This document shows, in pieces, positions 35,179-55,555 of a stretch of DNA of 55,555 nucleotides. How positions within the stretch are numbered: position 1 is the stretch's first letter; every line of letters begins with the position of its first letter. Source of the stretch: Scytonema sp. RU_4_4 (GTDB lineage Bacteria; Cyanobacteriota; Cyanobacteriia; Cyanobacteriales; Nostocaceae); the NCBI GenBank assembly GCA_012031965.1, contig JAAUSC010000019.1, positions 1 to 55,555 of the forward strand. Direction: 5' to 3'. The translations under genes were made by a program, and so were the position numbers. The notes beneath the pieces were generated by a model that saw nothing but the letters and a program-made list of their open reading frames with translations, made no database searches and was not told the origin of the DNA.

Positions 35179-36492
35179 TCAATTTATCGTGCGTACCGAT
35201 GCATTTGCCGCCAATAAGACACTCGCAATCAGCATGATGCTGCCTGTCGCACAGAAAAGAATTGTAAGATTTAAATCAGCTAATAAACCAGCTAAAGCAT
35301 AGGAAAAAGGAGCAACCCCAAAGGAAGAAAGCATCCCCAAACTCATGACTCTCCCTAACATCTCAGGTGAAGTTTGCTTTTGAATCCAGGTAATTCCTAC
35401 AACAGTAAAAAAGCCGCTGCAATAACCCAGTACAGCGATTGTCACGCTAGCCCATACTATATTTGGGATGAAGCCAAGCAGGAGGAGACCAAAACCTTGT
35501 ATACTAGCAAGACTCAGCATCAGGACTCCGAGGCGTGGAAGACGCCGCAGTACTCCAGGCATTAGCGTTCCTAATAGCCCACCACCACCCCAAGCTGAAT
35601 TCATTATGCCTAAAGCAACAGCACCCCCTGGAAAGCGACTTTGAGCCAGTGATGCGATGCCAACTTGTAAAGGACCAATGAAAACCAAGTTTAACATCGT
35701 TATGACTAGCAAAACCGCTCTTAGCGAAGGGTTATGCCATACATAGTTGAGTCCTTCACGAATACCAGCAATTAAACCAGCAAGATTGCTCCTAGTGGTC
35801 GGTTTTCTCATAGACGAGTCAAGAGGCTTTTCTAACTCGCCAGTCAACGCTGTTTCTTTAGTCCTGACAACACTTTGCTTACGGCTGTTTTTCATCAGCA
35901 AAAGTGTCACGGTTGTGACTAGGAAAGTAGCGGTATCAATTGCAAATGCTGTCTGAATACCTATTGTAGCAATTAGCAAACCGCCGAAAGCAGGTCCAAT
36001 CAGCATTAGGAGTTGAGTCGTTCCCTGGCTCAAGGCGTTACTCGCTGCCAACAATTCCTTTGTGACTAGGGTAGGTACAATCGACTTCGCGGCTGGGATA
36101 AAAAAGCCATCGACAACTCCAAAGCTTAAGGCAAACAAGTAAAGATGCCACAGTTGCGTCGTCCCCAATGCAACCAGGACTGTCAGTAATCCTGTCAGTA
36201 CTGCACGGAGGGCATTGGAAACAAGCATGATAAACCTGGGTGAAAGGCGATCGCTGACGACACCACCAAGCAGCAGAAAAACAGCACGGGGAACTGCAGC
36301 AGCCATTAGCACTGTGCCCAAGCTGACGGGAGAGTGAGTTAACTGGATAGTCAACCAAGGCAATGCCACTAAGTAAAATTGATCGCCCAGGAGTGAAATG
36401 CTTTCACCGATATACAGAAGTAGGAAGTCGCGTACCAAGAGCGGCTGCCAAATCTGCAGTTGGTCTTTGCTAGAAACTGTTGATTTTCCCAT
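35179..36492 (-). CDS. MFS exporter, EntS-like (putative metallophore efflux)
   Basis: The 437-residue protein is a 12-helix major facilitator of the MFS_3/EntS-like drug and siderophore exporter group: LLYIGESISLLGDQFYLVALPWL in helix 1, VSDRLSPRFIML as the loop 2-3 motif, and NALSQGTTQLLMLIGPAFGGLL. A polar central loop (residues about 200-235) separates the halves. It is divergent from the TonB receptor across a 510-bp shared promoter region, so export of the product made by the neighbouring NRPS operon is a reasonable inference. Other substrates cannot be excluded. Confidence 0.8.
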   Translation of the reverse strand: MGKSTVSSKDQLQIWQPLLVRDFLLLYIGESISLLGDQFYLVALPWLTIQLTHSPVSLGTVLMAAAVPRAVFLLLGGVVSDRLSPRFIMLVSNALRAVLTGLLTVLVALGTTQLWHLYLFALSFGVVDGFFIPAAKSIVPTLVTKELLAASNALSQGTTQLLMLIGPAFGGLLIATIGIQTAFAIDTATFLVTTVTLLLMKNSRKQSVVRTKETALTGELEKPLDSSMRKPTTRSNLAGLIAGIREGLNYVWHNPSLRAVLLVITMLNLVFIGPLQVGIASLAQSRFPGGAVALGIMNSAWGGGGLLGTLMPGVLRRLPRLGVLMLSLASIQGFGLLLLGFIPNIVWASVTIAVLGYCSGFFTVVGITWIQKQTSPEMLGRVMSLGMLSSFGVAPFSYALAGLLADLNLTILFCATGSIMLIASVLLAANASVRTIN

Positions 36493-39574: not shown

Positions 39575-40756
39575 ATGAAAAAATTGGGATTACTCGCTAG
39601 CTTGTACGTGGTACAGTTTTTGCCCGTCGCTTTCTTCATGCAAACCCTACCCGTGTTTCTACGGCAACAAGGTGTTTCTTTAGAAGCAATCGGGCTAACC
39701 AACTTGCTCAGTTTACCCTGGACGCTGAAGGTACTTTGGTCACCCTTTGTTGATCGCTACGGTTGGACAAGATGGGGACACTATAAATCTTGGATTTTGG
39801 CGATGCAGAGTCTTTTATTTGTGACACTTATCTTTTGTGCATCATTGAACATTCAAACTCATTTTGTACTCCTTATCGTAGGTATGCTGTTAGCTACTTC
39901 ATTTGCAGCGACTCAAGATATCGCTACTGATGCTTTGGCTATTGGATTGCTCGAAGAGTCGGAACGGGGTTGGGGGAATAGTATTCAGACTGCTGGAGGT
40001 TATCTCGGCGGGATTCTAGGAGGCGGTGGACTTCTGGTGCTGCTAGATTATTGGGGCTGGACGGGGAGTTTATTGACAATGGCATTAAGTGCGTTATTGC
40101 TACTTATTCCTGTACTATTCCATCGCGAGAAATTAGCTGGTTATACGCCTAACCAAAACCTGAGTTGGACAGTGTTTGTTAAGTTCTTCCGCCGTCCGGG
40201 AATGGGACGCTGGATACTGATTTTATTGCTCTACATGATGGGAGTTACTATTGCTAATACAATGTTTCGTCCATTGCTAGTCGATCTGAAACTGTCTTTA
40301 GCACAGATTGGGATAATGAACGGGATAGTCGCCTACAGTGCAGGGATTGTGGGAGCTTTTGTCGGCGGATTTTTGATGAAACCTTTGGGACGAAAGCAAT
40401 CTCTGATTATATTTGGCGTGTTAATGGCGATCGCCAACGCCGCTTTTATTTTACCTACCCTAGGGTTGACTAGCTTACCCGTTCTCTATCTAGTCAGCAT
40501 TGGGTTTCAGTTTGCGTACAGCATGGCGTTGATCCCGATGTACACCGTCATGATGGACAAAAGTCGGTTAGGAACTGCTGGATTTGACTACACTTTGCAA
40601 GTTTCAATTGTTTTCGTTGGTAGCTTGATAGCTGGCGCGATGAGTGGCTTTATAGCTAAAGCGATTGGTTATCAGGGAGCGTTTGCTTTTAGTGCGGCGA
40701 TCGCTCTTGTTAGCGTTGCTGTCATTGTTAAAACCTTTGATGACTCTTACGCCTAG
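39575..40756 (+). CDS. RhtX/FptX-family siderophore permease (MFS)
   Basis: The 393-residue, 12-helix transporter resembles the RhtX/FptX and AmpG-like group, single-protein inner-membrane permeases that take up siderophores such as rhizobactin and pyochelin. Support: the N-terminal FMQTLPVFLRQQGVSLEAIGL, LPWTLKVLWSPFVDRYGWTRWGHYKSWIL, and SFAATQDIATDALAIGLLEESERGWGN, all typical of this branch. It directly follows the TonB receptor, giving an outer- plus inner-membrane import pair with no ABC system needed. Import of the intact chelate is inferred. Confidence 0.85.
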   Translation: MKKLGLLASLYVVQFLPVAFFMQTLPVFLRQQGVSLEAIGLTNLLSLPWTLKVLWSPFVDRYGWTRWGHYKSWILAMQSLLFVTLIFCASLNIQTHFVLLIVGMLLATSFAATQDIATDALAIGLLEESERGWGNSIQTAGGYLGGILGGGGLLVLLDYWGWTGSLLTMALSALLLLIPVLFHREKLAGYTPNQNLSWTVFVKFFRRPGMGRWILILLLYMMGVTIANTMFRPLLVDLKLSLAQIGIMNGIVAYSAGIVGAFVGGFLMKPLGRKQSLIIFGVLMAIANAAFILPTLGLTSLPVLYLVSIGFQFAYSMALIPMYTVMMDKSRLGTAGFDYTLQVSIVFVGSLIAGAMSGFIAKAIGYQGAFAFSAAIALVSVAVIVKTFDDSYA

Positions 40757-40831
40757 TGCCGATATATAGACTCTTCTTATATAAAGAACGCTTTCTTGAA
40801 AGGTTTAAGTTCAAGAAATCAGGAGAAAATG

Positions 40832-41728
40832 ATGAAAATCAATAGACCACCTTCAGAATGTATTGGTGCTGAGATTTTAGATGTAGATGTTGTTTCAGTC
40901 ATGGAAGCAGAAATCAACATAATTAAACAACTTGTATACGATTATAAATTGGTGGTTTTCAGAGATCAGAATCTTAACGAAGACCAATATTTAGAATTTG
41001 CTCGCAAAATTGGTACACCACAAATCTATCCTCAAGACAACTATCATCACCCAGATTATCCAGAAATTTTTGTGTCTTCTAATGTTCCCAAAGATGGAAA
41101 GAAATTTGGAGTTCGAGGGACTGGTAGATACTGGCATACTGACTGTGCATTTCTTGCTGAACCTCTGCCATTTACTATGCTATACCCGCAAGTCTTACCA
41201 AGTTCAATTAGAGAAACTTACTACATTGATATGCAGCAGGTTTATAAAAAACTGCCTTCAAAATTAAGAAGTTATGTCGATGAAAAATATCTGGTACACG
41301 AGGCGAAATGGCGTTATAAAGTGCAAGAGTGGGATATCGACAGAGCAGTCATAGATATTATGAATGATTTTGAAAAGAAATTTCCCCCTGTTAAACATCC
41401 AGCTATCATTACGCACCCCGTTACTCATGAAAAAATCTTGTACATGAATCAAGGTTTTACCACTGGAATCGTGGGTTTAAATTATGAAACGAATCAAGAA
41501 CTGTTGCAAGAATTATTCTCATTTATTGAATGTGAGGAGCATATTCATACGCATGTATGGAAAGACGGTGACATTCTTTTATGGGAGAACAGAACTCTGA
41601 ATCACAAAGCATCTATAGTACCAGAAGGAGAGAAAAGTGTCAGCTACCGTATCGGTCTTTACGATGGCTTACCATTTTATGTTTCTTCTAAACGGGTAAA
41701 AGAACAGTCAGAAATGCCTACGAAATAA
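40832..41728 (+). CDS. ScoE/Rv0097-type non-heme Fe(II) dioxygenase (isonitrile-forming, TauD fold)
   Basis: In the isonitrile lipopeptide pathway this 2-oxoglutarate-dependent enzyme converts an N-carboxymethyl-3-amino fatty acid to a 3-isocyano fatty acid by oxidative decarboxylation. Numbered from 40832, the metal triad is H102-x-D104 in RYWHTDCAF and H258 in TLNHKA, with R273 (SYRIGLYD) as the 2-oxoglutarate anchor. The segment EIFVSSNVPKDGKKFGV and the YPQ(V)LP region match ScoE rather than ordinary TauD. AGGAG at 40821 is 6 bp before ATG 40832; an ATG at 40829 and one at 40796 are in frame but less well placed. It lies 38 bp before the FcoT-like gene. Confidence 0.85.
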   Translation: MKINRPPSECIGAEILDVDVVSVMEAEINIIKQLVYDYKLVVFRDQNLNEDQYLEFARKIGTPQIYPQDNYHHPDYPEIFVSSNVPKDGKKFGVRGTGRYWHTDCAFLAEPLPFTMLYPQVLPSSIRETYYIDMQQVYKKLPSKLRSYVDEKYLVHEAKWRYKVQEWDIDRAVIDIMNDFEKKFPPVKHPAIITHPVTHEKILYMNQGFTTGIVGLNYETNQELLQELFSFIECEEHIHTHVWKDGDILLWENRTLNHKASIVPEGEKSVSYRIGLYDGLPFYVSSKRVKEQSEMPTK

Positions 41729-41766
41729 AGATTGTAGTAATTTACAAAGAAGTGGATAAGTGAGTT

Positions 41767-42363
41767 ATGGATATCAACCAGAAATTTACTAGGGTAGATG
41801 ATGTAGGTCAAGATTTATTGGATGTGTTTCTTGAGCCATATAAAGAGAATTGTAAGTATCTGAATCATGCTCATTTTCAATATACAGAGCCAAGTCATTT
41901 CGTTCATGAATCGACAAGCGCTCATCAAGGTTTATGGTTGATAAAAGCTGATTTTTCCATTCCAGAATCTTGCTATATTGAGGACACTGGTCACTTTAAT
42001 TCGGTAGAATTCAATATTTGCTATAATCAATTATTTTATATCATGATTGCTTATTTACTGAAAAATAAGTTATTTGAGGTGATGAAAGACTGGGATTTAG
42101 AAACTTATAAACGCCGTCAACTGAGTGACTTTCTGATTGTTAGATTTTCCAGCACTTTTAAAAAACCAATCAATTCTAAGAATTTTCAAGGAACTCTATC
42201 AATTAACAAATACTCCGCTCGTAGCAATTTGATTCTGTTAAAGACCTCGTGTACCTTTTTTGATAAAAATGGTGGTTGGTCTGAAGGTGATGTGACCATC
42301 GCTATATTGAATAGCGAGTCAGAAAAAACTGTTACTCATTCTCATGAATCTGTACCAGCTTAA
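41767..42363 (+). CDS. FcoT/ScoD-type hotdog protein (glycine adduct formation / thioesterase)
   Basis: The 198-residue protein matches the FcoT family (Rv0098, ScoD). In isonitrile lipopeptide assembly ScoD adds glycine to an alpha,beta-unsaturated acyl-ACP and releases the product. The recognisable core is DFSIPESCYIEDTGHFNSVEF followed by NICYNQLFYIMIAYLL; later FLIVRFSSTFKKPIN and WSEGDVTIAIL fit the hotdog strands. Its place between the ScoE-like dioxygenase and a free ACP reproduces the Sco/Rv0097-Rv0101 order. The assignment is from remembered family patterns, not a search. Confidence 0.78.
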   Translation: MDINQKFTRVDDVGQDLLDVFLEPYKENCKYLNHAHFQYTEPSHFVHESTSAHQGLWLIKADFSIPESCYIEDTGHFNSVEFNICYNQLFYIMIAYLLKNKLFEVMKDWDLETYKRRQLSDFLIVRFSSTFKKPINSKNFQGTLSINKYSARSNLILLKTSCTFFDKNGGWSEGDVTIAILNSESEKTVTHSHESVPA

Positions 42364-42403
42364 ACGTTAGTCGTTATTTTTCCAGAGCGTAAATTTTTCT
42401 GCC

Positions 42404-42811
42404 ATGCACTCTAAACTTGTTGGTGACACCGAACCAAAAAAAGAAGTCGAGCAGTCCATAGTACAGCCGCATGAGCTTTTACTAAAATGGGCGGAGATAA
42501 CTGCAAGTGAACGTCAAGCACTCTTAAGAGCTTATATTCAAGAGCAGATTGCCAAAGCGGTAGGGATAAGCGCATGCGATTTAGATGTGCAGCAGCCTCT
42601 TCAGTATTTAGGAATTGACTCGCTGATAGCCGTTAAGCTGAGGAATCGGCTGAGAACTGACTTGGAAGTGGACGTGTCTGCAGTGAAATTTATGGAGGAT
42701 TTCAGTGTTACCAGTCTGGCTACGCAACTGAGTGAACAGATCCTCTCTGAAGATAAAGAACACCTCAGGCAAAATGCAATGAGTGATGATTGGCTAGAAG
42801 GTGAGATATGA
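42404..42811 (+). CDS. stand-alone acyl carrier protein (ScoB-like)
   Basis: The 135-residue carrier protein has the phosphopantetheine site LGIDSLIAV, with Ser73 as attachment residue, preceded by a helix LLRAYIQEQIAKAVGI. It is longer than a bare ACP, with an N-terminal extension of about 35 residues and an acidic C-terminal tail. It would carry the fatty acyl chain during isonitrile formation, like ScoB. The stop overlaps the NRPS start as ATGA, suggesting translational coupling and a role in delivering the acyl starter to the first condensation domain. Confidence 0.85.
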   Translation: MHSKLVGDTEPKKEVEQSIVQPHELLLKWAEITASERQALLRAYIQEQIAKAVGISACDLDVQQPLQYLGIDSLIAVKLRNRLRTDLEVDVSAVKFMEDFSVTSLATQLSEQILSEDKEHLRQNAMSDDWLEGEI

Positions 42812-45800
42812 ATTTAGTTGAGTTTCTCAAAGATCTCTCGGTGCAGAATGTCGAGTTGTGGCTTGATGGTGACCGACTGCGTTATCGTGGTCCCAAAGAA
42901 GCATTGACTCCCATACTGTTAAATAAAATTAAGCAGCATAAATCAGAAATTATACAGTTGCTGCGCGAGGGTTTTCACATCTCTAAATCCTATCCCCTGA
43001 CCCACGGTCAGCAAGGTTTGTGGTTTTTGTATAAGCTGGCACCTGAGAGTGCGGCTTACAACATTGCTTTTACCGCACGCATATGCTCCGATTTAAATGT
43101 TCCAGCTTTGCAACGGGCTTTTCAGGCGTTAATAGTTCGCCATGCAACACTACGTACTACATTTAGTCAACGAGATACTGAACCCTTTCAAGAGGTTCAT
43201 GAATACCAGGAAGTTTGCTTTGAGGAGATTGACGCTTCCACTTGGAACTCTTATGAGCTTACCCAAAAGGTGATTGAGGTATATCGGCGTCCCTTCGATT
43301 TGGAACGAGGACCCGTGCTGCGCTTGTGTCTGTTTACTAGCTCTGCACAAGACTACGTGCTTTTACTGACAATTCATCACATTGCTGTCGATGGCTTCTC
43401 ATTTGGCATTCTTCTGGATGAGTTGCGCTTGCTCTACCAGTCGGAAAATACTGGTCAAGCGGTATCTCTACCTCCCATTAACTGGCAATATAGGGACTTT
43501 GTACAGTGGCAACGCTCAATGTTGGCAAGTCCTGTTGGAGATAATCTTTGGACTTATTGGCACAAACAATTAGCTGGTGAACTACCAGTATTAAAATTGC
43601 CGAGCGATAGACCTCGACCGCCAATTCAAACCTATCAAGGAGCTTCTTATACCTTTGAACTGCCCTTAGAGTTAACTACCAAGCTAAGGGAAATGGCGAA
43701 GGCTCAAGGAGCAACCCTTTACATGACTCTCCTGACAGCCTTTCTAGTGCTGCTTCACCGCTACACGGGTCAGGAAGATATTATAGTTGGCTCTCCCACT
43801 GAGGGGAGAAGTCAGCCTGAATTCGCCGGAACTGTGGGCTTTTTTGTCAATATGCTTGCTCTGCGAGTCAATATTACTGGCAATCCCACGTTTTGTGCGC
43901 TTTTATCCCAAGTGCGCCAGACGGTATTAAGCGCGATCGCCCATCAAGATTATCCCTCTCCAATATTGATCGAGCAATTGCAAGTAAACCGCGATCCCAG
44001 CCTTCCAGGACTTTTCCGAGTTTCATTTAATCTCTTGAGATTGCTGGAAATTGCGGAGAACTATGAATTATCTGTATCCAATCAAACAAGAATTAGAGAA
44101 GATTGGGGAGGATTAACGCTAGAGCCGTTTGTCATACCACAGCAGGAAGGACAGAATGATTTAGTCTTCGACATGATGGAGACAAAGGAATTGCTGCTTG
44201 GTATCTTCAGGTACAACACAGATCTATTTGATGCGACGACAATTAGCCGAATGGTTGGTCATTTCCAAACCTTACTGGACTGTATTGTTACTAATTCAGA
44301 GCAGCAAATTTCGTCATTACCCCTGCTAACCGCAGCCGAACAACATCATTTACTGTTGGAGTGGAACAATACGCAAGTAGAGTATCCCCAGGATAAGTGT
44401 ATTCATCAGTTGTTTGAGAGCTTTGTAAAAATGACCCCAAATGCGGTAGCAGTGGCATTTAAAGACCAGCAACTGACTTACCAACAGTTAAACATCCGAG
44501 CAAATCAACTGGCACACTACTTACAAAGGTTAGGGGTAAGACCAGAAGTACTAGTGGGCATTTGTGTCGAACGCTCCCTAGAGATGGTCGTGGGATTACT
44601 GGCGATTCTCAAAGCGGGTGGGGCTTATGTGCCATTAGACCCCGCTTACCCCAAAGAGCACTTGACTTTTATGCTTAAAGATGCAGAGGTGTCGGTGCTG
44701 TTGACTCAGCAAAGACTAGTGGAATATCTTCCAGAGCAGAGCGCACGTGTCGTTTTCTTAGACAAAGACTGGGAGGTCATTTCCCAGGAGAGCCAAGCAA
44801 ATCTGCTTAGCAATGCTACATCCCAAAATTTAGCCTACGTGGTTTACACATCGGGTTCTACAGGCAAGTCTAAGGGTGTGATGATTGCTCATCGCAGTCT
44901 GGTTAATGCATATCAGGTTTGGGAAAACGCATATCAGCTTCGGTCCCTGACTAGTCATCTCCAAATGGCTAGTTTTTCTTTTGATGTTTTTTCAGGGGAT
45001 TTGATTCGCGCTCTTTGTTCTGGGGCGAAATTAGTGTTATGCCCGCGTGAGTGGCTTTTGGAACCTCAGGAACTGTATAAACTGATGCTAGCCCAGAAGA
45101 TTGATAGCGCAGAGTTTGTTCCGGCTGTTCTGAGGAACTTGGTTGAGTATCTGGAAAGAACCAAGCAAAATCTTCACTTCATGCGGTTGCTAGTAGTAGG
45201 TTCAGATAGCTTGTATGTTAAGGAGTATGAGGAATTTCAGCGTTTGTGCGGTCCTGATACTCGCTCTTATAATTCCTATGGGGTCACTGAAGCCACCATT
45301 GACAGTACGTATTTTGAAAGTAAAAAAGTTAACTTGCCTGTTGATAGGTTAGTCCCGATTGGACGTCCGTTTGCCAATACGCAAATCTATATACTAGACC
45401 GTCATCTCCAAAGCGTTCCCATCGGAGTTCCTGGCGAATTGCATATAGGAGGTGTTGGTCTTGCCCGAGGTTACCTCAACCGACCGGACTTGACTGAGGA
45501 GAAATTCATCTCCAACCCCTTTAACAATTCAAAATCGCGAAGCGTTGCGAGCGAAGCGACGCAATCTCAAAATTCAAAATCTGATCGCCTGTATAAAACT
45601 GGGGACTTAGCTCGTTATCTTCCTGATGGTAACATCGAGTTTCTTGGTCGGATTGATAATCAGGTAAAGATTCGTGGCTTCCGCATCGAACTTGGGGAAA
45701 TTGAAGCGGTACTGAGGACACATCCTCAAGTACGAGAAGCGGTGGTGATTGCCCACCAAGAACAAGCGGACAACAAATCCCTAGTTGCTTATATTGTTTT

Positions 45801-46557
45801 TTACCAAGAGTTTCTAAGCATTCATGAGGTGCGTAACTTCCTTAAACAGAAGCTGCCGGAGTACATGGTACCATCTGCTTTTGTGATGCTAGAGGCTCTG
45901 CCTTTGACTCCCAACGGCAAGGTAGACCGACGTGCCTTGCCTGCACCAGATAGGTCACAGAATCGGATCTCAGACTTTGTACCACCCCGGACGCCTACAG
46001 AAGAAGCGATCGCCAACATTTTCGCCTCCGTCCTCAAACTAGAACAAGTGGGCATCGACGACAACTTCTTTGAGTTGGGAGGACATTCCCTACTCGCCAC
46101 TCAAGTCATTTCTCGATTGCAGCAAACCTTTAACGTCGAGTTTCCTCTACGCTGCCTATTAAAATCCCCCACAGTCGCTGAACTTCATCAGACTGTCTTA
46201 GAATACCGCCAAGTTGAATCCCCGCTTGCCCAAAAATCTTTTGTTCTTCTACCAACAATAGTACCTGCTCTGGAGCAGCGCTATCAACCCTTCCCCCTGA
46301 CTGACATCCAACAAGCTTACTGGCTGGGTCGTAATGAAGCCTTTGAGCTTGGCAACATTGCTGCTCACGGTTACATAGAGATTGACAGTAATAACTTAAA
46401 TCTGGAAAGGTTAAACCTGGCTTGGCAGAAACTCATTTTGCGTCATGATATGTTGCGAGCAGTGGTTTTACCAGATGGTCAGCAACAAATTCAAAAACAG
46501 TGCCTCCCTATGAGATTGAGGTTTTGGACTTGCGTGGACAGCCACCTGAAGCCATAA
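42808..46557 (+). CDS. NRPS 1, 5' part: TubC docking-C-A(Orn/Lys-like)-PCP-Cy(part), frameshifted
   Basis: First synthetase, read in the upstream frame. Domains: TubC-type docking (1-57), condensation (62-500, HHIAVDG near 190), adenylation (about 535-1045, A3 YTSGSTGKSKG), PCP (LGGHSLL, Ser near 1093), then the first 90 residues of a heterocyclization (Cy) domain starting FPLTDIQQAYWLGR at about 1161. The hand-read A-domain code is DVGELVSIDK, close to codes for ornithine/lysine-type amino acids. The Cy domain is cut by a frameshift near 46500, and the last 19 residues are off-frame. The two halves should be one protein of about 2,489 residues. By analogy with ScoA, the first module acylates a diamino acid with isonitrile fatty acid. 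Confidence 0.88.
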   Translation: MNLVEFLKDLSVQNVELWLDGDRLRYRGPKEALTPILLNKIKQHKSEIIQLLREGFHISKSYPLTHGQQGLWFLYKLAPESAAYNIAFTARICSDLNVPALQRAFQALIVRHATLRTTFSQRDTEPFQEVHEYQEVCFEEIDASTWNSYELTQKVIEVYRRPFDLERGPVLRLCLFTSSAQDYVLLLTIHHIAVDGFSFGILLDELRLLYQSENTGQAVSLPPINWQYRDFVQWQRSMLASPVGDNLWTYWHKQLAGELPVLKLPSDRPRPPIQTYQGASYTFELPLELTTKLREMAKAQGATLYMTLLTAFLVLLHRYTGQEDIIVGSPTEGRSQPEFAGTVGFFVNMLALRVNITGNPTFCALLSQVRQTVLSAIAHQDYPSPILIEQLQVNRDPSLPGLFRVSFNLLRLLEIAENYELSVSNQTRIREDWGGLTLEPFVIPQQEGQNDLVFDMMETKELLLGIFRYNTDLFDATTISRMVGHFQTLLDCIVTNSEQQISSLPLLTAAEQHHLLLEWNNTQVEYPQDKCIHQLFESFVKMTPNAVAVAFKDQQLTYQQLNIRANQLAHYLQRLGVRPEVLVGICVERSLEMVVGLLAILKAGGAYVPLDPAYPKEHLTFMLKDAEVSVLLTQQRLVEYLPEQSARVVFLDKDWEVISQESQANLLSNATSQNLAYVVYTSGSTGKSKGVMIAHRSLVNAYQVWENAYQLRSLTSHLQMASFSFDVFSGDLIRALCSGAKLVLCPREWLLEPQELYKLMLAQKIDSAEFVPAVLRNLVEYLERTKQNLHFMRLLVVGSDSLYVKEYEEFQRLCGPDTRSYNSYGVTEATIDSTYFESKKVNLPVDRLVPIGRPFANTQIYILDRHLQSVPIGVPGELHIGGVGLARGYLNRPDLTEEKFISNPFNNSKSRSVASEATQSQNSKSDRLYKTGDLARYLPDGNIEFLGRIDNQVKIRGFRIELGEIEAVLRTHPQVREAVVIAHQEQADNKSLVAYIVFYQEFLSIHEVRNFLKQKLPEYMVPSAFVMLEALPLTPNGKVDRRALPAPDRSQNRISDFVPPRTPTEEAIANIFASVLKLEQVGIDDNFFELGGHSLLATQVISRLQQTFNVEFPLRCLLKSPTVAELHQTVLEYRQVESPLAQKSFVLLPTIVPALEQRYQPFPLTDIQQAYWLGRNEAFELGNIAAHGYIEIDSNNLNLERLNLAWQKLILRHDMLRAVVLPDGQQQIQKQCLPMRLRFWTCVDSHLKP
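45524..45582 (+). repeat. palindromic repeat inserted in frame in the first A domain
   Basis: CAATTCAAAAT, then GCGAAGCGTTGCGAGCGAAGC, then AATTCAAAAT: a GC-rich palindromic unit bracketed by ATTCAAAAT copies. It adds about 18 residues (NSKSRSVASEATQSQNSK) where related A domains go directly from FNP to RLYKTGDL. It keeps the frame open. Confidence 0.75.
46495..46505 (+). other. frameshift site splitting NRPS 1
   Basis: The sister Cy domain in NRPS 2 continues QQILEKVPCYEISILDLRG. Here the upstream frame reads QQQIQKQ then CLPMR, while the next frame reads VPPYEIEVLDLRG. Inserting one G after 46500 (CAG-GTG-CCT-CCC) joins both halves exactly. No slippery heptamer supporting programmed frameshifting is seen. 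Confidence 0.9.
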
Positions 46558-49500
46558 CCGCACAGCTAGAAACCATTCGTCATCAGATGTCTCATGAAGT
46601 CTTGCCTGCACAGCAAGGACCTCTGTTCAAGCTTCGAGCCACTCGTTTAGATAAACAGCGCACTCGACTTCACCTCAGTTTTGACGCTTTGATAGGCGAT
46701 GCCTTGAGTCTGTTTGTGCTTGTCCGAGAGTGGAGTTTATTATACCAGAATCCTGAGCTTGTATTGCCGCCACTGGAAATCTCATTTCGGGATTATGTTC
46801 TTGCAGAGTTAGCTCTACAAGATACGCAACAATATCGGCGTTCTCAGGAGTATTGGTTCAGTCGCCTAGACACCTTACCTCCAGCGCCAGAATTACCTCT
46901 GGCTAAGAACCCCAGTTCCATAACCAAACCTCAGTTCAAACGTCGCAGTGCTGAACTGTCCCCAGCCCAATGGCAACAATTGAAAAACCGGGCTAACCAA
47001 GTCAATCTGACTCCTTCCGGAGTGTTGCTGAGTGCTTTTGCTGAAATCCTCAGCCAGTGGAGCAAAAGTGCAAAATTTATCATCAATCTCACCCTGTTTC
47101 ATCGTTTGTCCTTACACCCTCAAGTCAATGACCTTGTAGGAGATTTCACGTCACTGACACTTCTGGAAGTAGACAACTCAGTCTCTAATTCCTTTACGAT
47201 CCGTGCTCAACAATTACAGCAGCATCTGTGGCAGGATTTAGACCACGGCTATGTTAGTGGCTTGCAGGTTCAACGAGAACTAAGCCGTCAGCAACAGAAT
47301 TATCAATTTATGCCAGTTGTTTTTACCAGCACTCTGGGTTTGGACTCACTTGGTCACAACAGATCAATCCTGAATCAGTTAGGAGAGGTGGTCTACAGCA
47401 TTAGCCAAACACCACAAGTGTGGCTGGATCATCAAGTCAGTGAGCAAAATGGAGCGTTAGTATTCAACTGGGATGCGGTAGAAGAACTCTTTCCTGAAGG
47501 TCTTCTCGACGATATGTTTGGGGCTTACTGCCATTTTCTTGAGCAGCTAGCGACTTCTTCCTCAGCTTGGGTTGAGACTTACCGACAATTACTACCACAG
47601 GCTCAACTCTCCCAACGAACTGCGGTGAATGATACTGCTGCACCTGTTTTGTCACAAACCTTGCACGGTCTGTTTATCAACTCCGTTCAATTGCAAGCGC
47701 GATCGCCCGCAGTCATGACACAAGAGCGCACCCTCACTTACCAGCAATTGTACCAACTTGCCAGTCAGTTAGCACATCGATTGCGGCAGTTGGGAGCCAC
47801 TGCCAACACCCTGGTTGCTGTTGTGATGGACAAGGGGTGGGAGCAGATTGTCGCGGTACTGGGAATCTTAATGTCCGGAGCGGCTTATCTGCCCATCGAT
47901 CCGGGACTTCCTCAGGAGCGACAGTGGTACCTGCTTGCACAAGGGCAAGTCAAACTGGTTGTGACTCAGCCCCACCTTGATCGCCTCCTGTCTTGGCAAT
48001 CAGGTATTCAGCGTTTCTGCGTTGAGACTGAGGAGTTGGAACAAAGCAACTCTAGCTCCCTAGAATCAGTGCAGACTACTGATTTAGCTTATGTTACTTA
48101 CACTTCCGGTTCCACAGGTCTACCCAAAGGGGTGATGATTGACCATCGGGGTGCAGTCAATACCATCCTCGACATTAATCAGCGCTTTGGAATTGGACCA
48201 TCTGACCGCGTGTTAGCCCTGTCAGCGTTGAACTTTGACCTATCAGTGTACGATATCTTTGGGATACTGGCGGCAGGAGGAGCAATTGTCATCCCTGCAC
48301 AAGAAGCAACCAAAGACCCTGCTGACTGGCTAGAGTTAATGGTGTCAAGTCAAGTCACCCTGTGGAACTCAGTTCCGGCGCTGATGCAGATGTTGGTGGA
48401 ATATTTGTCCACACAGCCAGAAAAAGCACCAACATCACTGCGTTTGGCTTTGTTGAGTGGGGATTGGCTACCTCTTAGTTTACCAGAGCAAATTCAAGCG
48501 CTATGGTCAAATCTCAAGATAGTGAGTTTGGGGGGAGCAACCGAGGCTTCCATTTGGTCGATTTGCTATCCGATTTCGACAGTTGACCCAAATTGGAAGA
48601 GTATTCCCTATGGACAACCGCTGAAGAATCAACGTTTTTATGTTTTCAATGAGTTGATGGAACCATGTCCGGTGTGGGTACCTGGACAGCTTTATATTGG
48701 GGGGATAGGACTGGCAAAAGGTTACTGGCGGGATGAAGACAAGACAAAAGCCAGCTTTATTACCCATCCTTTGACTCAAGAGCGGTTGTACAAAACTGGC
48801 GATTTGGGACGCTATTTACCCGATGGCAATATTGAGTTTCTGGGGCGGGAGGATTTTCAGATCAAAATCAATGGCTACCGCATTGAACTTGGTGAAATTG
48901 AGGCGGCTTTGAAACATCATCCCATTATTAAGGAGGCGGTAGTCACTGCGGTAGGAGAGTCACAAAAAAACAAGCAGCTTGTGGCTTATGTTGTCCCCGA
49001 TCAAGAATCTATCTCTACCAATCCACTTTCACCAAATCAAAATTTAGTAGAAGCTTACCAACCCCGTCAACTTGAAGGAGTAGTGCTTGATCCTGTAGAA
49101 CGCATTGAATTTAAGCTTCAGCAACCAGGATTACGACAGCTAGAATCTTCTCAAACCAGTATCCAGTTGCCCAAACCTAAATTTGATGAAGCCCTAACCC
49201 AAGCATACCTTGAGCGTCAAAGTTATCGGCAATTTCTGCCTCAACCTATTTCTTTGGAACAGTTTAGCCAGTTTTTAAGCTGCCTTTCTCAGATGAAACT
49301 GGATGATTATCCTCTACCAAAATATCGTTATCCTTCTGCCGGGAGTCTCTATCCTGTGCAGACTTACTTGTTCATTAAACCCAACCGAGTGGAAGGTCTA
49401 GAAGCAGGTATATACTATTACTATCCTGCTGACCATCGTTTGCTATTACTTAATGCCATCAGCGAAATTGAGAGCAGTGTATATGGTGGCAATCAACTAC

Positions 49501-50276
49501 TTTTTGAGCAATCCGCCTTTCAGTTGTTTTTGATCGGCAAACTAAGTGCTATTACCCCGATGTATGGGGAACGGGCATTGGACTTCTGTCTCCTAGAAGC
49601 GGGTCATATCGGTCAGTTGCTGATGAACTCCGCACCAACACACCAAATTGGACTCTGTCCCATTGGCTACCTAGAATTTGCCGAACTGCAAGATTTATTT
49701 AGGCTGGAATCAAGCCAGGTTCTGCTTTATAGCTTTGTGGGTGGGAGAATAAATTTAACTCATACCAAGCAGTGGTTGTCGCCCAAAACGACTCAGAGGT
49801 CGCAGTCAATTTCTGACCAGTGGCGGGAATACCTTCAATATAAGCTACCAGAGTACATGGTGCCTTCTCAGTATATTCTCTTAGATATTTTGCCTCTCAC
49901 TCCCAATGGAAAGGTAGATCGCAAAGCATTACCTAGTCCCAATATAGCATCGAAGTTGGAAGTGGTCTTAGCGCCTCCAAAAACTGAAATGGAGCAAACT
50001 TTAGCCAAAATTGTGCAAGAACTCCTTCAGATAGAGGCAGTAGGTATCCATAATAATTTCTTTGAGTTGGGGATGGATTCATTGAAATTAGTTCAGTTGA
50101 GAAACCAGTTGCTTTCCTCACTAGGAGTCAACGTATCTATGAAGCAATTGTTGGTAGAAGCAACCAATATTGCAGAACTGGCTTTGACTGTGGATGAGCA
50201 ATTAACATTGGCAAAAATCAAACAAAAGCCCTTATCTACTCAACTTAGCGATGATAAGGAGAGATTCACATTATGA
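46500..50276 (+). CDS. NRPS 1, 3' part: Cy-A(Cys)-Ox-PCP, continuation after the frameshift
   Basis: This frame completes the first synthetase; the apparent start at 46500 is artificial. Domains in this frame: rest of the Cy domain with its DxxxxD motif (FDALIGD, D62/D67), adenylation (about 395-1185), and a terminal PCP (LGMDSLKL, Ser near 1194). The A domain has the classical cysteine code DLYNLSLIWK. Between its A8 and A10 motifs, at about 855-1100, an FMN-dependent SagB/McbC-type oxidase is inserted (YRYPSAGSLYPVQTYLF), as in thiazole-forming NRPSs. The module should therefore cyclise and oxidise Cys to a thiazole. The stop overlaps the next NRPS start (ATGA). Confidence 0.88.
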   Translation: MPPYEIEVLDLRGQPPEAITAQLETIRHQMSHEVLPAQQGPLFKLRATRLDKQRTRLHLSFDALIGDALSLFVLVREWSLLYQNPELVLPPLEISFRDYVLAELALQDTQQYRRSQEYWFSRLDTLPPAPELPLAKNPSSITKPQFKRRSAELSPAQWQQLKNRANQVNLTPSGVLLSAFAEILSQWSKSAKFIINLTLFHRLSLHPQVNDLVGDFTSLTLLEVDNSVSNSFTIRAQQLQQHLWQDLDHGYVSGLQVQRELSRQQQNYQFMPVVFTSTLGLDSLGHNRSILNQLGEVVYSISQTPQVWLDHQVSEQNGALVFNWDAVEELFPEGLLDDMFGAYCHFLEQLATSSSAWVETYRQLLPQAQLSQRTAVNDTAAPVLSQTLHGLFINSVQLQARSPAVMTQERTLTYQQLYQLASQLAHRLRQLGATANTLVAVVMDKGWEQIVAVLGILMSGAAYLPIDPGLPQERQWYLLAQGQVKLVVTQPHLDRLLSWQSGIQRFCVETEELEQSNSSSLESVQTTDLAYVTYTSGSTGLPKGVMIDHRGAVNTILDINQRFGIGPSDRVLALSALNFDLSVYDIFGILAAGGAIVIPAQEATKDPADWLELMVSSQVTLWNSVPALMQMLVEYLSTQPEKAPTSLRLALLSGDWLPLSLPEQIQALWSNLKIVSLGGATEASIWSICYPISTVDPNWKSIPYGQPLKNQRFYVFNELMEPCPVWVPGQLYIGGIGLAKGYWRDEDKTKASFITHPLTQERLYKTGDLGRYLPDGNIEFLGREDFQIKINGYRIELGEIEAALKHHPIIKEAVVTAVGESQKNKQLVAYVVPDQESISTNPLSPNQNLVEAYQPRQLEGVVLDPVERIEFKLQQPGLRQLESSQTSIQLPKPKFDEALTQAYLERQSYRQFLPQPISLEQFSQFLSCLSQMKLDDYPLPKYRYPSAGSLYPVQTYLFIKPNRVEGLEAGIYYYYPADHRLLLLNAISEIESSVYGGNQLLFEQSAFQLFLIGKLSAITPMYGERALDFCLLEAGHIGQLLMNSAPTHQIGLCPIGYLEFAELQDLFRLESSQVLLYSFVGGRINLTHTKQWLSPKTTQRSQSISDQWREYLQYKLPEYMVPSQYILLDILPLTPNGKVDRKALPSPNIASKLEVVLAPPKTEMEQTLAKIVQELLQIEAVGIHNNFFELGMDSLKLVQLRNQLLSSLGVNVSMKQLLVEATNIAELALTVDEQLTLAKIKQKPLSTQLSDDKERFTL

Positions 50277-53200
50277 ACAGAAATGAACTTTTAACTGAAC
50301 TCGACAAACGGGGTGTGAAATTATGGGTTGAAAATGACCAATTAAGTATTGAAGCACCAAAAGGAGTATTGACAAAAGAGCTGCTTGACTCATTGGCAAA
50401 GCATAAATTAGAGATTATCCGCTTGCTACGCTTAACCGATACAAACGCAACTTCTCTACCAGTCATTGAGCCAGATCCTAACAGGCGATACGAACCTTTT
50501 CCTCTGACTGACATCCAGCAAGCTTATTGGGTGGGGCGCAGTGGCATATTTGAGTTAGGCAATGTAGCCATTAATGGTTACATTGAATTTGAAGCTAGCA
50601 ATTTAGATCTGTCACGGCTTACATACGCTTGGCAGAAGTTAATTGAGCGCCACGATATGCTGCGAGCTGTCGTTCTACCTACAGGTGAGCAACAGATTTT
50701 AGAGAAAGTTCCATGCTATGAAATTTCAATATTAGATCTGCGAGGACTGGAAGGGAAAGAAGTAGACACTCAGCTAAAAGCCATTCGAGAAAAATTATCC
50801 CACCAAGTGTTACCGTCACACCAGTGGCCCTTGTTTGATATTCGAGCCACTTATTTGGACAAGCAGCGCGTCCGACTTCACATCTGTATAGATTTATTGA
50901 TGATGGATGCTGCGAGTATTCGGATTCTGTTTCAGGAGTGGAATAAACTTTACCAGAATCCTGGAATTTTCTTAACACCATTGGAACTATCATTCCGGGA
51001 CTATGTTACCAATAAGAAAGTCCTGGAAGATCCAGATTTGGTGAAGCTATCGCAGGATTACTGGTTCAGCCGTTTAGACACTTTACCCCCAGCACCAGAA
51101 TTACCTCTAGCTTATTTCCCTCGTGAGCTAAAAGACTATCGATTCAAACGTCGCCGTGCTCAACTGGAACCTAATACTTGGCAGCAATTAAAGCAGCGAG
51201 GAAAAAATGTCGGTTTGACTCCTTCTGTCATATTGCTTGCTGCTTTTGCCGAAGTTTTAACAGTGTGGAGCAAAAATCCTCGGTTTACTATCAATCTCAC
51301 TATATTTGAGCGTCTTCCCCTGCATCCTCAGGTTAATCAAATTATTGGAGATTTTACTAATACAAATTTATTAGCAGTAGACAATTCAGCCCAAGATACA
51401 TTTATTGTTCGTGCTTTGCGACTACAGCAGCAATTGCTACAAGATTTAGACCATCTTCATATCAGTGGGGTGCAGGTACTGCGGGAATTGGCTCGTCGCC
51501 GGAAAACTGGATTAACCGCAGTTATGCCAATAGTTTTTACCAGTATTTTAGGTTTAAATTCTTCTTCTGAGGAAGATTTAGAGTTCAATTTTTTGGGAGA
51601 AGAGGTCTACAGCATCAGCCAAACACCACAAGTATGGTTAGATCATCAAGTCACGGAGCTTCAGGGGGCATTAGTATTCAATTGGGATGTGGTAGAAGAA
51701 CTCTTCGGTGTTGGTCTTCTCGACGATATGTTTGGGGCTTACTGCCATTTCCTAAAGGAGTTGGCACAGGAGGATAAACTGTGGCATTCCCCGACGCGAG
51801 AACTTCTGCCACCAGCACAGGTGAAGCAACTAGTTGCTGTTAACACAACCGCTACACCAATTCCAGAAGCTGCCTTACTCCATACCTTGTTTTTTGAGCA
51901 AGTGCCTTGGCGTCCACAGCAGGCGGCTGTAGTTACCACCCATCGTACCCTAACGTATCAAGAGTTAGGCGATCGCGCAACTGAGCTAGCACATCAACTG
52001 CGACAACTGGGCGTTCGCCCTAATCAGCTGGTAGCGATTGTGATGGAGAAAGGCTGGGAGCAAGTTGTGGCTGCCTTAGGCATTCTTGCCGCTGGTGCTG
52101 TTTATGTGCCGATTGACCCTGGACTTCCAACTGAACGCCGATGGTATCTTTTGCAACAGGCAGAAGTCCAACTGGTGCTCACCCAGACCCGACTTGACAC
52201 CACCCTAGATTGGCCAGAGAACATACAACGCCTTTGTATAGATTCTAATTTCAAACAGTCGCCGGAAACATCTCTGCGTAAACAGCCATTAGAGGCAGTG
52301 CAAAAACCGGAAGACCTCGCCTATGTCATCTACACCTCTGGCTCTACAGGAATGCCCAAAGGTGTGATGATTTCGCATCAAGGTGTAGTCAACACTATCC
52401 TTGACATCAACCAACGCTTTCATGTCAATGCTGATGACCGAGTTTTAGCTCTCTCTTCTCTGAGTTTTGATTTATCGGTTTACGACATCTTCGGCACTTT
52501 AGCCGCTGGAGGAACTATTGTTATTCCAGAAGCTGCCAGCACTAAAGACCCAGTTCATTGGACACAACTCATTATAAAACACCAAGTTACAGTCTGGAAC
52601 TCAGTTCCTGCTTTAATGCAGATGTTAGTGGAGTATGCCTCAGCTCATCCTGAAATTGCATTCAACACTCTGAGGTTAGTCTTAATGAGTGGCGATTGGA
52701 TACCGTTAAGCTTACCTGACCAGATAAAAGCTTTGTCCAACTCTGTAAAAGTGATTAGCCTTGGAGGTGCTACCGAAGCATCTATTTGGTCTATTCTCTA
52801 TCCTGTGGGGGAGGTAAATTCAGTCTGGAAGAGCGTTCCCTACGGTCGTCCAATGGCTAACCAGCGCTTTTATGTGCTTAATGAAACGCTACAACCACGT
52901 CCGGTATGGGTTCCTGGACAGCTCTATATTGGGGGTATTGGACTCGCTAAAGGTTACTGGCGCGACGAAGAAAAGACCCAAGCTAGCTTTATTATTCATC
53001 CTCAGACCAAGGAGCGGTTGTATAAAACTGGCGACTGGGGTCGTTATTTACCCGATGGCAATATTGAGTTTCTGGGGCGGGAGGATTTTCAGGTCAAAAT
53101 CAATGGCTACCGTGTCGAACTCGGTGAAATTGAGGCGGCTTTGAAACAGCATTCTGCAATCAAAGAGGCAATCGTTACTGTTGTAGAAGAGCGAGGTAAG

Positions 53201-54556
53201 GTACTGATAGGTTACGTGGTTCCAGAACCTGGGAAAGTCTCCGAAATTTTTGATGTTCCTGAGACAGATTCACAACAGAAACCTAACACCACTCGCAGCG
53301 AACTGCGTCGCTTTCTCAAAGAAAAGCTACCAGAGTACATGGTACCTTCTGCCTTCGTGCTGTTAGAATCATTGCCGCTAACACCTAATGGCAAAGTGGC
53401 TCGTCAGGCGCTTCCTGCTCCCGAGCGCACGAAACCGGAGTTAGAAAAAACTTTTGTATCTCCTCGCGACAAAGTTGAGGAATTGCTGGTAGCAACTTGG
53501 ACTGAAGTATTCCGGCTTGAACGCATAGGCATCCATGACGACTTCTTTGAGTTGGGTGGAGACTCGTTTTTGGCGCTTCAACTTATCTCGAAAATTAATC
53601 AAAAACTTGGCACAAACCTATCGCTTGGTATACTTTTTCAGCATCCAACCCTGGCAGAGCTAGCAAATTATATCACAAAAAATACTGATACTTCAGTAAA
53701 ATCCACATATTTAGTTCCTATCCAAGTTGAAGGAACTCAGCCCCCGTTGTTCTGTATTCACCCAGCAGGGGGACAAGTGATGGTGTATCAGCACCTGGCG
53801 GCTTGTCTAGGACCAGATCAACCTGTCTACGGTATACAGTCTTGTGCTCTCAACGATCTAACTCAAGAGCATACTAGCATCGATAATATGGCTGTTGAAT
53901 ACACCAAGGTCATTCGCCAGCATCAACCCGATGGTCGTTATTATCTCATGGGTTGGTCTATGGGCGGGGTACTTGCTGTAAGTGTTGCTCAAGAGTTAGA
54001 GCAACAAGGACAGAAGGTTGCTTTTGTTGGACTTGTGGATGCCTTTTTAATTTCAGATAATACACCAACTTTTGAACGCGACCCCTTGCACGAACTGGCA
54101 TTGGTGTTCGGCGGTACTTTCGTTGATGCTTTCATGGCTCTGGATGCTGTTGAACAGCAGGGATTGCGAGACGAGCTTATAAGTTTGCTAACTTTAGAAC
54201 GTCTGCGGCGGATAATGGTCTGGGGACAAGAACGAAACCTACTCTCGACTGAGATTTCTGTGGAGTTCCTACAAAAACAAGTAAATCTCACTGAGATTCA
54301 CGAACAACTGCTTAGAGTTCACCGCGCACCTCAAATTCAAGCTAGGCTCTATGTCTGGTGGGCTTTGGATAAGCTCGACGGAGGACTGTCTCGTACCAAC
54401 TGGAGTCAATACACTACAGACGCAAGCTACACGGAAATTGTTGATGGTAACCACTTCACTGTAATGCGTACTCCACATATTCAGACCCTTGCTCAGAGAT
54501 TGCAAGAATGCCTTCGGGCTGTGCGCTCATCAGAGTTAAAGAGTCAGGAAAATTAA
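50273..54556 (+). CDS. NRPS 2: TubC docking-Cy-A(Cys)-PCP-TE
   Basis: The 1,427-residue second synthetase is intact. Domains: TubC-type docking (1-56), heterocyclization (about 76-510, DxxxxD as D207/D212), adenylation (about 540-1045) with cysteine code DLYNMSLIWK, PCP (LGGDSFLAL, Ser near 1099), and thioesterase (about 1150-1415) with GWSMGG nucleophile (Ser near 1228) and a catalytic His in GNHFTVM. There is no oxidase here, so the ring should remain a thiazoline. The TE releases the product by hydrolysis or cyclisation, unlike the reductive release of ScoA. It is coupled to NRPS 1 by a 4-bp overlap. Confidence 0.92.
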   Translation: MNRNELLTELDKRGVKLWVENDQLSIEAPKGVLTKELLDSLAKHKLEIIRLLRLTDTNATSLPVIEPDPNRRYEPFPLTDIQQAYWVGRSGIFELGNVAINGYIEFEASNLDLSRLTYAWQKLIERHDMLRAVVLPTGEQQILEKVPCYEISILDLRGLEGKEVDTQLKAIREKLSHQVLPSHQWPLFDIRATYLDKQRVRLHICIDLLMMDAASIRILFQEWNKLYQNPGIFLTPLELSFRDYVTNKKVLEDPDLVKLSQDYWFSRLDTLPPAPELPLAYFPRELKDYRFKRRRAQLEPNTWQQLKQRGKNVGLTPSVILLAAFAEVLTVWSKNPRFTINLTIFERLPLHPQVNQIIGDFTNTNLLAVDNSAQDTFIVRALRLQQQLLQDLDHLHISGVQVLRELARRRKTGLTAVMPIVFTSILGLNSSSEEDLEFNFLGEEVYSISQTPQVWLDHQVTELQGALVFNWDVVEELFGVGLLDDMFGAYCHFLKELAQEDKLWHSPTRELLPPAQVKQLVAVNTTATPIPEAALLHTLFFEQVPWRPQQAAVVTTHRTLTYQELGDRATELAHQLRQLGVRPNQLVAIVMEKGWEQVVAALGILAAGAVYVPIDPGLPTERRWYLLQQAEVQLVLTQTRLDTTLDWPENIQRLCIDSNFKQSPETSLRKQPLEAVQKPEDLAYVIYTSGSTGMPKGVMISHQGVVNTILDINQRFHVNADDRVLALSSLSFDLSVYDIFGTLAAGGTIVIPEAASTKDPVHWTQLIIKHQVTVWNSVPALMQMLVEYASAHPEIAFNTLRLVLMSGDWIPLSLPDQIKALSNSVKVISLGGATEASIWSILYPVGEVNSVWKSVPYGRPMANQRFYVLNETLQPRPVWVPGQLYIGGIGLAKGYWRDEEKTQASFIIHPQTKERLYKTGDWGRYLPDGNIEFLGREDFQVKINGYRVELGEIEAALKQHSAIKEAIVTVVEERGKVLIGYVVPEPGKVSEIFDVPETDSQQKPNTTRSELRRFLKEKLPEYMVPSAFVLLESLPLTPNGKVARQALPAPERTKPELEKTFVSPRDKVEELLVATWTEVFRLERIGIHDDFFELGGDSFLALQLISKINQKLGTNLSLGILFQHPTLAELANYITKNTDTSVKSTYLVPIQVEGTQPPLFCIHPAGGQVMVYQHLAACLGPDQPVYGIQSCALNDLTQEHTSIDNMAVEYTKVIRQHQPDGRYYLMGWSMGGVLAVSVAQELEQQGQKVAFVGLVDAFLISDNTPTFERDPLHELALVFGGTFVDAFMALDAVEQQGLRDELISLLTLERLRRIMVWGQERNLLSTEISVEFLQKQVNLTEIHEQLLRVHRAPQIQARLYVWWALDKLDGGLSRTNWSQYTTDASYTEIVDGNHFTVMRTPHIQTLAQRLQECLRAVRSSELKSQEN

Positions 54557-54601
54557 TAAACTTAGCTTGAGCAATATAGATGCAATTGTTGAGGAATGTC
54601 G

Positions 54602-55549
54602 ATGATATATAACGATGAAATCCAAACACTAGCAGATTTAGCACGCATGCAAGCGCATCAATTTCCAGAAGACAAGGCGTTAATTCTTAAGGATAAAGCG
54701 CTCACCTATTTACAGTTACATGTACAAAGTAATCGCGTTGCTAATGCACTTTTAGCGCATGGAGTTAAAGCGAAATCAAGAGTTGCATTATTGGCTAAAG
54801 ATTCACTCAAGAGTTATGAAATATTATTTGCGTGTAACAAGGTAAATGCTGTCTTGGTGCCTATTAATTGGCGTTTAGCTGCTGTAGAAGTGAGCTATAT
54901 TTTAAGAGATGCCAATGTTGAAGTTCTTTTTGTCGGACCTGAGTTTCACACGTTGGTTGAATCTATTAGAGATGAGCTTGATGGTGTTAAAAGCATTATT
55001 GCCTTAGAAAAAGCTGAACAGAACTGCCTAACTTACGATAATTGGTGCCAACAACATAGTGATGTTCAACCTAATGTCGTCGTTGAAGCACATCATGTAG
55101 CAGTGCAAATTTATACCAGTGGCACTACGGGACGACCCAAAGGTGTCCAACTGGCACATCACAGTTTCTTTGCTATTGCCAAAGAATTTGTTAAGCAAGG
55201 TAAAAGCTGGATAGGTTGGAGTGAAACAGATAAGAGCTTGTTGGTTTTACCTTTCTTTCATATAGGAGGTTTATGGTGGGCTATCCGTGGTTTAGCATCC
55301 GGTGCCGAAAATATTTTGCTGGAAACTTTTGATGGAATTGAGGTTCTCAAAGCCATTGAAAAATACCGCATCACAAAGACCTGTATGGTGCCCGCAATGA
55401 TTCAAGTTCTGTTAACTGAACCATTATGTAAACAAACGGATTTTCATCACTTGAATATATTGTTTACGGGGGTTCTCCTATTGCTGAATCACTACTTAAA
55501 GAGGCGATGGCAACATTTTCCTGCAACTTTGTGCAAATTTATGGCATGA
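54602..55549 (+). CDS. acyl-CoA/ACP ligase, ScoC/FadD10-like (partial at edge, frameshifted)
   Basis: An ANL-superfamily adenylating enzyme that in the isonitrile pathway activates the fatty acid and loads it on the ACP. It has the N-terminal A-type pattern DKALILKDKALTYLQL, the P-loop IYTSGTTGRPKGV, and VLPFFHIGGLWWAIRGL. ATG 54602 has GAGG 7 bp upstream; ATG 54596 is only 1 bp from it. The frame breaks at the G-run 55468-55472. Adding one G restores LFTGGSPIAESLLKEAM and FVQIYGMTE, open to the window end at 55555. The 55549 stop is thus off-frame and the true gene continues beyond the window. Confidence 0.85.
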   Translation: MIYNDEIQTLADLARMQAHQFPEDKALILKDKALTYLQLHVQSNRVANALLAHGVKAKSRVALLAKDSLKSYEILFACNKVNAVLVPINWRLAAVEVSYILRDANVEVLFVGPEFHTLVESIRDELDGVKSIIALEKAEQNCLTYDNWCQQHSDVQPNVVVEAHHVAVQIYTSGTTGRPKGVQLAHHSFFAIAKEFVKQGKSWIGWSETDKSLLVLPFFHIGGLWWAIRGLASGAENILLETFDGIEVLKAIEKYRITKTCMVPAMIQVLLTEPLCKQTDFHHLNILFTGVLLLLNHYLKRRWQHFPATLCKFMA

Positions 55550-55555
55550 CCGAAA

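Follow-up and report, generated by a model that had tools for sequence, protein, structure and literature searches.

Gene cluster and NRPS assembly line

The window, i.e. the whole stretch of 55,555 nucleotides that was analysed, is an entire contig (C95) of the Scytonema sp. RU_4_4 assembly (7.33 Mb in 400 contigs). It carries a nonribosomal peptide synthetase (NRPS) gene cluster, for which a thio-template pathway to a metallophore, an isonitrile acyl-ornithine-thiazole-thiazoline, is moderately favoured. From position 37003 to the contig end every cluster gene is located on the plus strand. A preliminary description had recognised here the five-part set of isonitrile-type clusters, joined to two heterocyclization modules for cysteine. 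This observation was confirmed by domain scans, and all five parts are present: a TauD-fold dioxygenase dependent on iron and 2-oxoglutarate (Fe/2OG; 40796..41728, with an open reading frame (ORF) from TTG and an ATG at 40829), an FcoT/ScoD-like protein (41767..42363), a free acyl carrier protein (ACP; 42404..42811; PF00550, motif LGIDSL), the NRPS and an acyl-CoA/ACP ligase (54596..55555; PF00501), FadD/ScoC-like by position. The ACP stop overlaps the start of NRPS 1, and the two NRPS genes overlap likewise.

NRPS 1 has the order TubC-C-A-PCP-Cy-A(Ox)-PCP (C, condensation; A, adenylation; PCP, peptidyl carrier protein; Cy, heterocyclization; Ox, oxidase) and lies in two frames. The first frame (42808..46557) contains the TubC docking domain, C (42985-44355), A1 (44413-45921), PCP (46006-46185) and the start of Cy (46294-46497). 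The second (46500..50276) contains the remaining Cy (46506-47591), A2 (47688-49007), the embedded oxidase (49212-49736) and PCP (49995-50183). NRPS 2 (50273..54556), with the order TubC-Cy-A-PCP-TE, consists of the docking domain, Cy (50501-51772), A3 (51893-53395), PCP (53486-53674) and a thioesterase (TE; 53741-54484). The C, Cy and TE motifs were as expected in both NRPS, and Cy carries DxxxxDxxS. The A domains were aligned to the Cys anchor and assigned with the Stachelhaus codes for ornithine (DVGEIGSIDK) and cysteine. The code of A1 (DVGEVGSID) is of the ornithine type; A2 and A3 both show DLYNLSLIW for cysteine. Ornithine or lysine had been considered for module 1, of which ornithine was retained and lysine dropped. 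The two Cys modules, the single oxidase and the release by TE were found as described.

The cluster was compared with the isonitrile lipopeptide (INLP) clusters ScoA-E and Rv0097-Rv0101. Common to both are the Fe/2OG dioxygenase adjoining an FcoT/ScoD-like protein, the free ACP, the acyl ligase and an NRPS beginning with C and an A domain for a basic amino acid. INLP clusters end in a reductase. In contrast to their single C-A-T NRPS with reductive release, the window has three modules and a TE, and no reductase domain was reported by the domain scan of this line. Further differences are the two Cy-Cys modules with the oxidase, the genes for a TonB-dependent receptor and a permease, the Gram-negative host, and a dioxygenase and FcoT under the NCBI cut-offs for ScoE and ScoD. 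Lysine and NADPH were employed in the ScoA, B, C assay described in the accessible part of the ScoE paper (PMC7949033).

With pyochelin/yersiniabactin-type systems the window shares two Cy-A(Cys) modules, TE release, a TonB receptor and an FptX-like permease. Unlike in these systems, the starter would be acyl-ornithine; no salicylate or chorismate enzyme was found among the 10 ORFs scanned (35179-55549), a search that did not extend to other parts of the genome. The cyanobacterial thiazole/thiazoline metallophores in print, lusichelins, leptochelins and fatuamide A, are salicylate-capped according to the accessible parts of the reports (PMC12210259, PMC11877528). Lusichelins A-E of Lusitaniella coriacea resemble the predicted product in Cys-derived thiazole/thiazoline from Cy and Ox domains and are likewise accompanied by TonB and major facilitator superfamily (MFS) genes, but they carry the salicylate cap and involve polyketide synthase modules (PMC12210259, accessible part). 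The accessible text of this paper mentions neither isonitrile nor FcoT, and that of the fatuamide paper has no mention of isonitrile. The literature searched, with key papers and most subscription journals outside its coverage, described neither an isonitrile-thiazole compound nor an FcoT cluster for cyanobacteria. The earlier statement that no such compound is described from cyanobacteria is consistent with this.

FcoT-like protein and related loci

The presumed similarity of the second gene to FcoT/ScoD is present (PF10862, 3.8e-58). Structural relatives are PDB 5wsx/5wsy and 2pfc. With CmiS1/SAV606, the dual-function thioesterases of the cremimycin type, the protein shares the FcoT fold and the conserved block ESCYIxDTGHxNSVExNICYNQ. 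A total of 399 homologues was obtained at E <= 0.001; the named ones among the 120 matches listed were cyanobacterial. FcoT was rare in the sampled genomes, with 10/291 in the order (9 over the cut-off) and 3/386 in the phylum (2 over the cut-off), the own genome being counted in both samples.

A scan of genome contigs confirmed 173 FcoT loci (numbered with L), and the best 80 were retained. These were picked with a cyanobacterial FcoT alignment, and thus the phylum counts are biased: 34 Actinomycetota, 20 cyanobacterial (19 labelled as such and L060), 14 Pseudomonadota, 7 Planctomycetota, 4 Bacteroidota and 1 Myxococcota. The search for matching clusters in other cyanobacteria, proposed in the preliminary description, was successful. 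The Orn-Cys(Ox)-Cys line of the window occurs in 8/20 cyanobacterial loci (L003, L004, L007, L036, L041, L044, L053, L060), with NRPS 2 lacking the TE in L004 and a frame break in A2-Ox of L003. L002 (Brasilonema) has the same line with an additional first module, L033 and L059 are truncated by contig ends, and L070 has just one Cys module. No Cy domain was seen in L005, L009, L010, L011, L012 and L013 (L012 and L013 are cut by contig ends), and no matching NRPS domain near L006 or L008. The ligase is present in 17 of the 20 loci and absent from the contigs of L007, L012 and L013. Complete relatives include the clusters of Nostoc carneum NIES-2107, with a type A dioxygenase, and of Westiellopsis; Crocosphaera is a further candidate producer. 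In L128 (Okeania SIO3B5) and L129 (Symploca SIO2C1) a trio of dioxygenase, FcoT and ligase was observed without an adjoining matching NRPS; L129 has a 2188-aa ORF with an ACP-like match on the opposite strand.

Classification of the dioxygenase

In the dioxygenase tree the window protein was placed outside the ScoE clade (type A) and outside TauD, in a third branch (type B). Type B occurs in cyanobacteria, methanotrophs, Bacteroidota, Planctomycetota and one myxobacterium. Neither in the tree nor in structure does the window protein group with the TauD family proper; the structure comparison gave ScoE and SfaA as nearest. Judged from its sequence, the enzyme is a member of a sister subfamily of ScoE, and this replaces the plain ScoE label. 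The earlier assignment is corrected in this respect. With L118, L072 and L065 included, support was 100/92 for type A and merely 69/86 for type B. These three were dropped from a later tree for their long branches, and the fragment L067 was omitted from both. TauD-like proteins of the own genome, tried as outgroup, were unalignable (branch length 10) and were dropped.

Residues were counted in 38 type A and 36 type B rows with ScoE numbering, leaving out L067 and the intermediate L074. H132, D134, H295, Y96, Y101, R157, K193 and R310 are common to all rows of both types (38/38 and 36/36). Arg at position 191 and Asp at 200 are invariant in type B only (36/36 each) and could carry an alternative network; in the window protein they are R173 and D182, counted from the TTG start. 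The gammaproteobacterial L074 stands between the types, with Arg at both 195 and 299.

Other arrangements of type B genes were observed. Two Methylomonas koyamae strains (L025 2443-4215, L029 8153-9902) have a tandem pair of type B dioxygenase genes ahead of FcoT. Behind their non-cyanobacterial type B pairs, L052 (10516-16410), L055 (10671-16688) and L026 (10551-17552) carry long assembly-line genes of other kinds. After the Pedobacter pair a 1964-aa ORF was read as ACP-KS-ACP-C-A-PCP-TE (KS, ketosynthase); ORFs of similar size follow the pairs of Methylobacter and one planctomycete.

Exchange of the dioxygenase-FcoT pair

Cyanobacterial type A and type B pairs of dioxygenase and FcoT sit on one shared NRPS line. 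In Nostoc relatives, a ScoE passing the cut-off of the NCBI equivalog NF049937 occurs with the same line. The two groups were fixed beforehand from the dioxygenase tree and compared with a first-NRPS tree of 15 rows of orthologous domains. In this tree the pair type takes 2 changes; the starred branches force 2, and 0/200 bootstrap trees had 1. A single type A clade was rejected (p-AU 5.2e-6 in the approximately unbiased (AU) test). Two changes were also obtained with the ACP tree and with the ligase tree (22 rows); in the latter the starred branches force just 1, and again 0/200 bootstrap trees had 1. In the FcoT tree A is split from B by one change (100/100). The 2 changes in the NRPS, ACP and ligase trees against 1 for FcoT indicate, therefore, a joint movement of dioxygenase and FcoT as one unit. 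In the NRPS tree before removal of non-orthologous domains, L070 (type A) was sister to L003 (type B) with 100/100; the pair of L070 is located at the opposite cluster end, behind ligase and exporter. Earlier trees of the first and second NRPS (3 and 4 changes) had included non-orthologous domains from clusters without Cy and were discarded; only the first was recomputed. The pair exchange is the strongest argument from sequence that type B would supply an equivalent starter.

Proposed pathway and alternative explanations

Gene content, domain order, A-domain codes, fold, conserved line and pair exchange were read directly from the sequences; the steps of the pathway are proposed by analogy to the Sco pathway and CmiS1/SAV606. 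The ligase would put an enoyl or fatty acid onto the free ACP. Michael addition of glycine at the beta carbon of the enoyl-ACP by the FcoT-like protein would give an N-carboxymethyl-3-amino acid, and oxidation and decarboxylation by the type B dioxygenase would lead to a 3-isocyano acid, reloaded by ligase and ACP. C1 would acylate ornithine, at one or both amines. In module 2 a Cys would be added, cyclised and oxidised to thiazole; module 3 would add Cys as thiazoline, and the TE would release the acid. With a 3-isocyanobutanoyl starter the calculated product would be C16H21N5O3S2 (395.109; +14.016 for each further CH2) if acylated once and C21H26N6O4S2 (490.146; +28.031 for a CH2 in both chains) if acylated twice. 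Export may be the task of the MFS protein, and the metal complex may return to the cell through TonB receptor and permease.

It is probable that type B forms the isonitrile, because the structure is nearest to ScoE and a ScoE above the cut-off occurs on the same NRPS line in Nostoc relatives; yet residues and score diverge, and thus the annotation is not simply transferable. We give an even chance to type B being a second, mechanistically distinct isonitrile-forming Fe/2OG subfamily, swapped with ScoE-FcoT pairs on Orn-Cys-Cys NRPS for (3-isocyanoacyl)-Orn-thiazole-thiazoline metallophores. Another arrangement for 2-oxoglutarate binding, perhaps with Arg191/Asp200, would then take the place of His299, which is mobile in ScoE, and of the network of Arg195. 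Several results weigh against the proposed pathway as a whole, among them the frame breaks, the cut ligase and the negative search for a regulatory box described below. The window dioxygenase reached 268.7 bits with NF049937 (cut-off 400), which was passed by 4/4 type A and 0/9 type B proteins tested (3 type B and 1 type A of the scored rows are 270-aa pieces), and the FcoT-like protein 157 of the 250 bits required for the ScoD equivalog NF049938. In an outgroup-enriched tree type A fell into two pieces, and a single clade of A and B was neither supported nor rejected (AU p 0.37). At position 97 all 38 type A rows have Tyr, and the type B rows Phe (25) or Pro (11). Arg fills position 195 in 38/38 type A rows; type B has Gln (31), Thr (4) and Arg (1/36). 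At position 299 type A has His (30) or Tyr (8), type B 12 kinds of residue with His in 0/36. The window protein retains Y96 and Y101, does not retain Tyr97 and has Gln for R195 and Ile for H299. According to the accessible part of the ScoE paper, the variants Y96F, Y101F and R195Q gave zero product, Y97F reduced product, and H299Q neither isonitrile nor succinate (PMC7949033). However, His at 299 is not universal even in type A, since the 8 rows with Tyr are cyanobacterial type A.

The three lost residues, the invariants R191 and D200 and the low scores would also fit a type B enzyme that halts elsewhere on the N-carboxymethyl-3-amino acid, at a 3-amino acid, N-formyl or imine stage. The product would then be a beta-amino-acyl-Orn-thiazole-thiazoline without isonitrile. 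The CmiS1/CmiS2 system of cremimycin is a precedent: the flavoenzyme CmiS2, in place of an Fe/2OG dioxygenase, acts on the N-carboxymethyl amino acid and strips the glycine carbons to the 3-amino acid (PMC11284099, accessible part). Against it stand the exchange of type A and type B pairs on the same line, the retained Y96, Y101, K193, R157 and R310 and the structure nearest to ScoE, and we regard this outcome as rather unlikely. That the cluster is decayed and makes nothing is considered quite improbable. Frame changes do occur in NRPS 1 (46491/46494) and in the ligase (between ~55,441 and 55,543, compared with Brasilonema FadD), the latter gene being truncated by the contig end. In addition, an IS701 family transposase gene splits the second NRPS gene of the complete type A cluster on the 250-kb plasmid of Halotia branconii (L115, 13566-35103), a hint that the pathway is mobile and that this copy has decayed. 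But the window frames around the breaks are open, with 72-88% identity to Brasilonema over whole proteins, and the frames of relatives are intact. Moreover, the ligase break lies ~120 bases from a contig end in a draft of 400 contigs, where sequence errors are presumably common. A lipopeptide with another role, e.g. an antibiotic, is unlikely as well; TonB receptor and permease would then have an unrelated task. This reading would agree with the search for a Fur/Zur box (presumed consensus), in which neither 36493-37002 nor the region ahead of the Brasilonema receptor gene rose above shuffled sequence. No TonB match was obtained in the searched stretch of 8/20 loci, several of them truncated by contig ends, and the transporter models scored under their cut-offs. 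Nevertheless, TonB and permease accompany the cluster in 12/20 cyanobacterial loci in two different orientations, and copper uptake is the role of known diisonitrile lipopeptides (PMC9600254, accessible part). Type A INLP-like clusters on two Streptomyces plasmids (L116, L130) adjoin genes for a heavy-metal P-type ATPase and a PCu(A)C copper chaperone, neighbours in line with a copper role.

In general, the earlier interpretation is partly supported. If the isonitrile pathway is true, a new chemical class of cyanobacterial metallophore would combine isonitrile and thiazole/thiazoline donors. A single NRPS line that carries either of two divergent pairs of dioxygenase and FcoT would be a natural exchange experiment, in which it is testable whether His299/Arg195 are needed for isonitrile formation or merely for ScoE-style 2-oxoglutarate binding. 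The words isonitrile and chalkophore are absent from the main text of an eLife paper on metallophore mining (PMC12971057); detection rules like those therein would probably miss this pathway by its starter.

Transport and neighbouring genes

The TonB-dependent receptor with N-terminal AMIN domain (37003..39555, plus strand; PF00593, PF07715, PF11741) is a candidate for metallophore import, with 184 bits to the siderophore receptor model TIGR01783 (cut-off 223.5). The MFS permease (39575..40756, plus strand) is related to RhtX/FptX siderophore permeases (TIGR02718, 191 bits, cut-off 356) and AmpG permeases (TIGR00901, 196 bits, cut-off 350). An EntS-like MFS transporter on the minus strand (35179..36492; PF07690) is the export candidate, with 132.8 bits to the EntS model, under its cut-off; its relatives adjoin FadD or ScoE in sister clusters.

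The genes at 1-35000 of the window (10 ORFs scanned) look unrelated to the cluster. They encode a FAD-binding photolyase domain, a formyltransferase/enoyl-CoA hydratase fusion, a protein kinase, a class V aminotransferase, an OprB porin, a protein of the glutamyl/glutaminyl-tRNA synthetase type, FtsH and a flavin amine oxidase.
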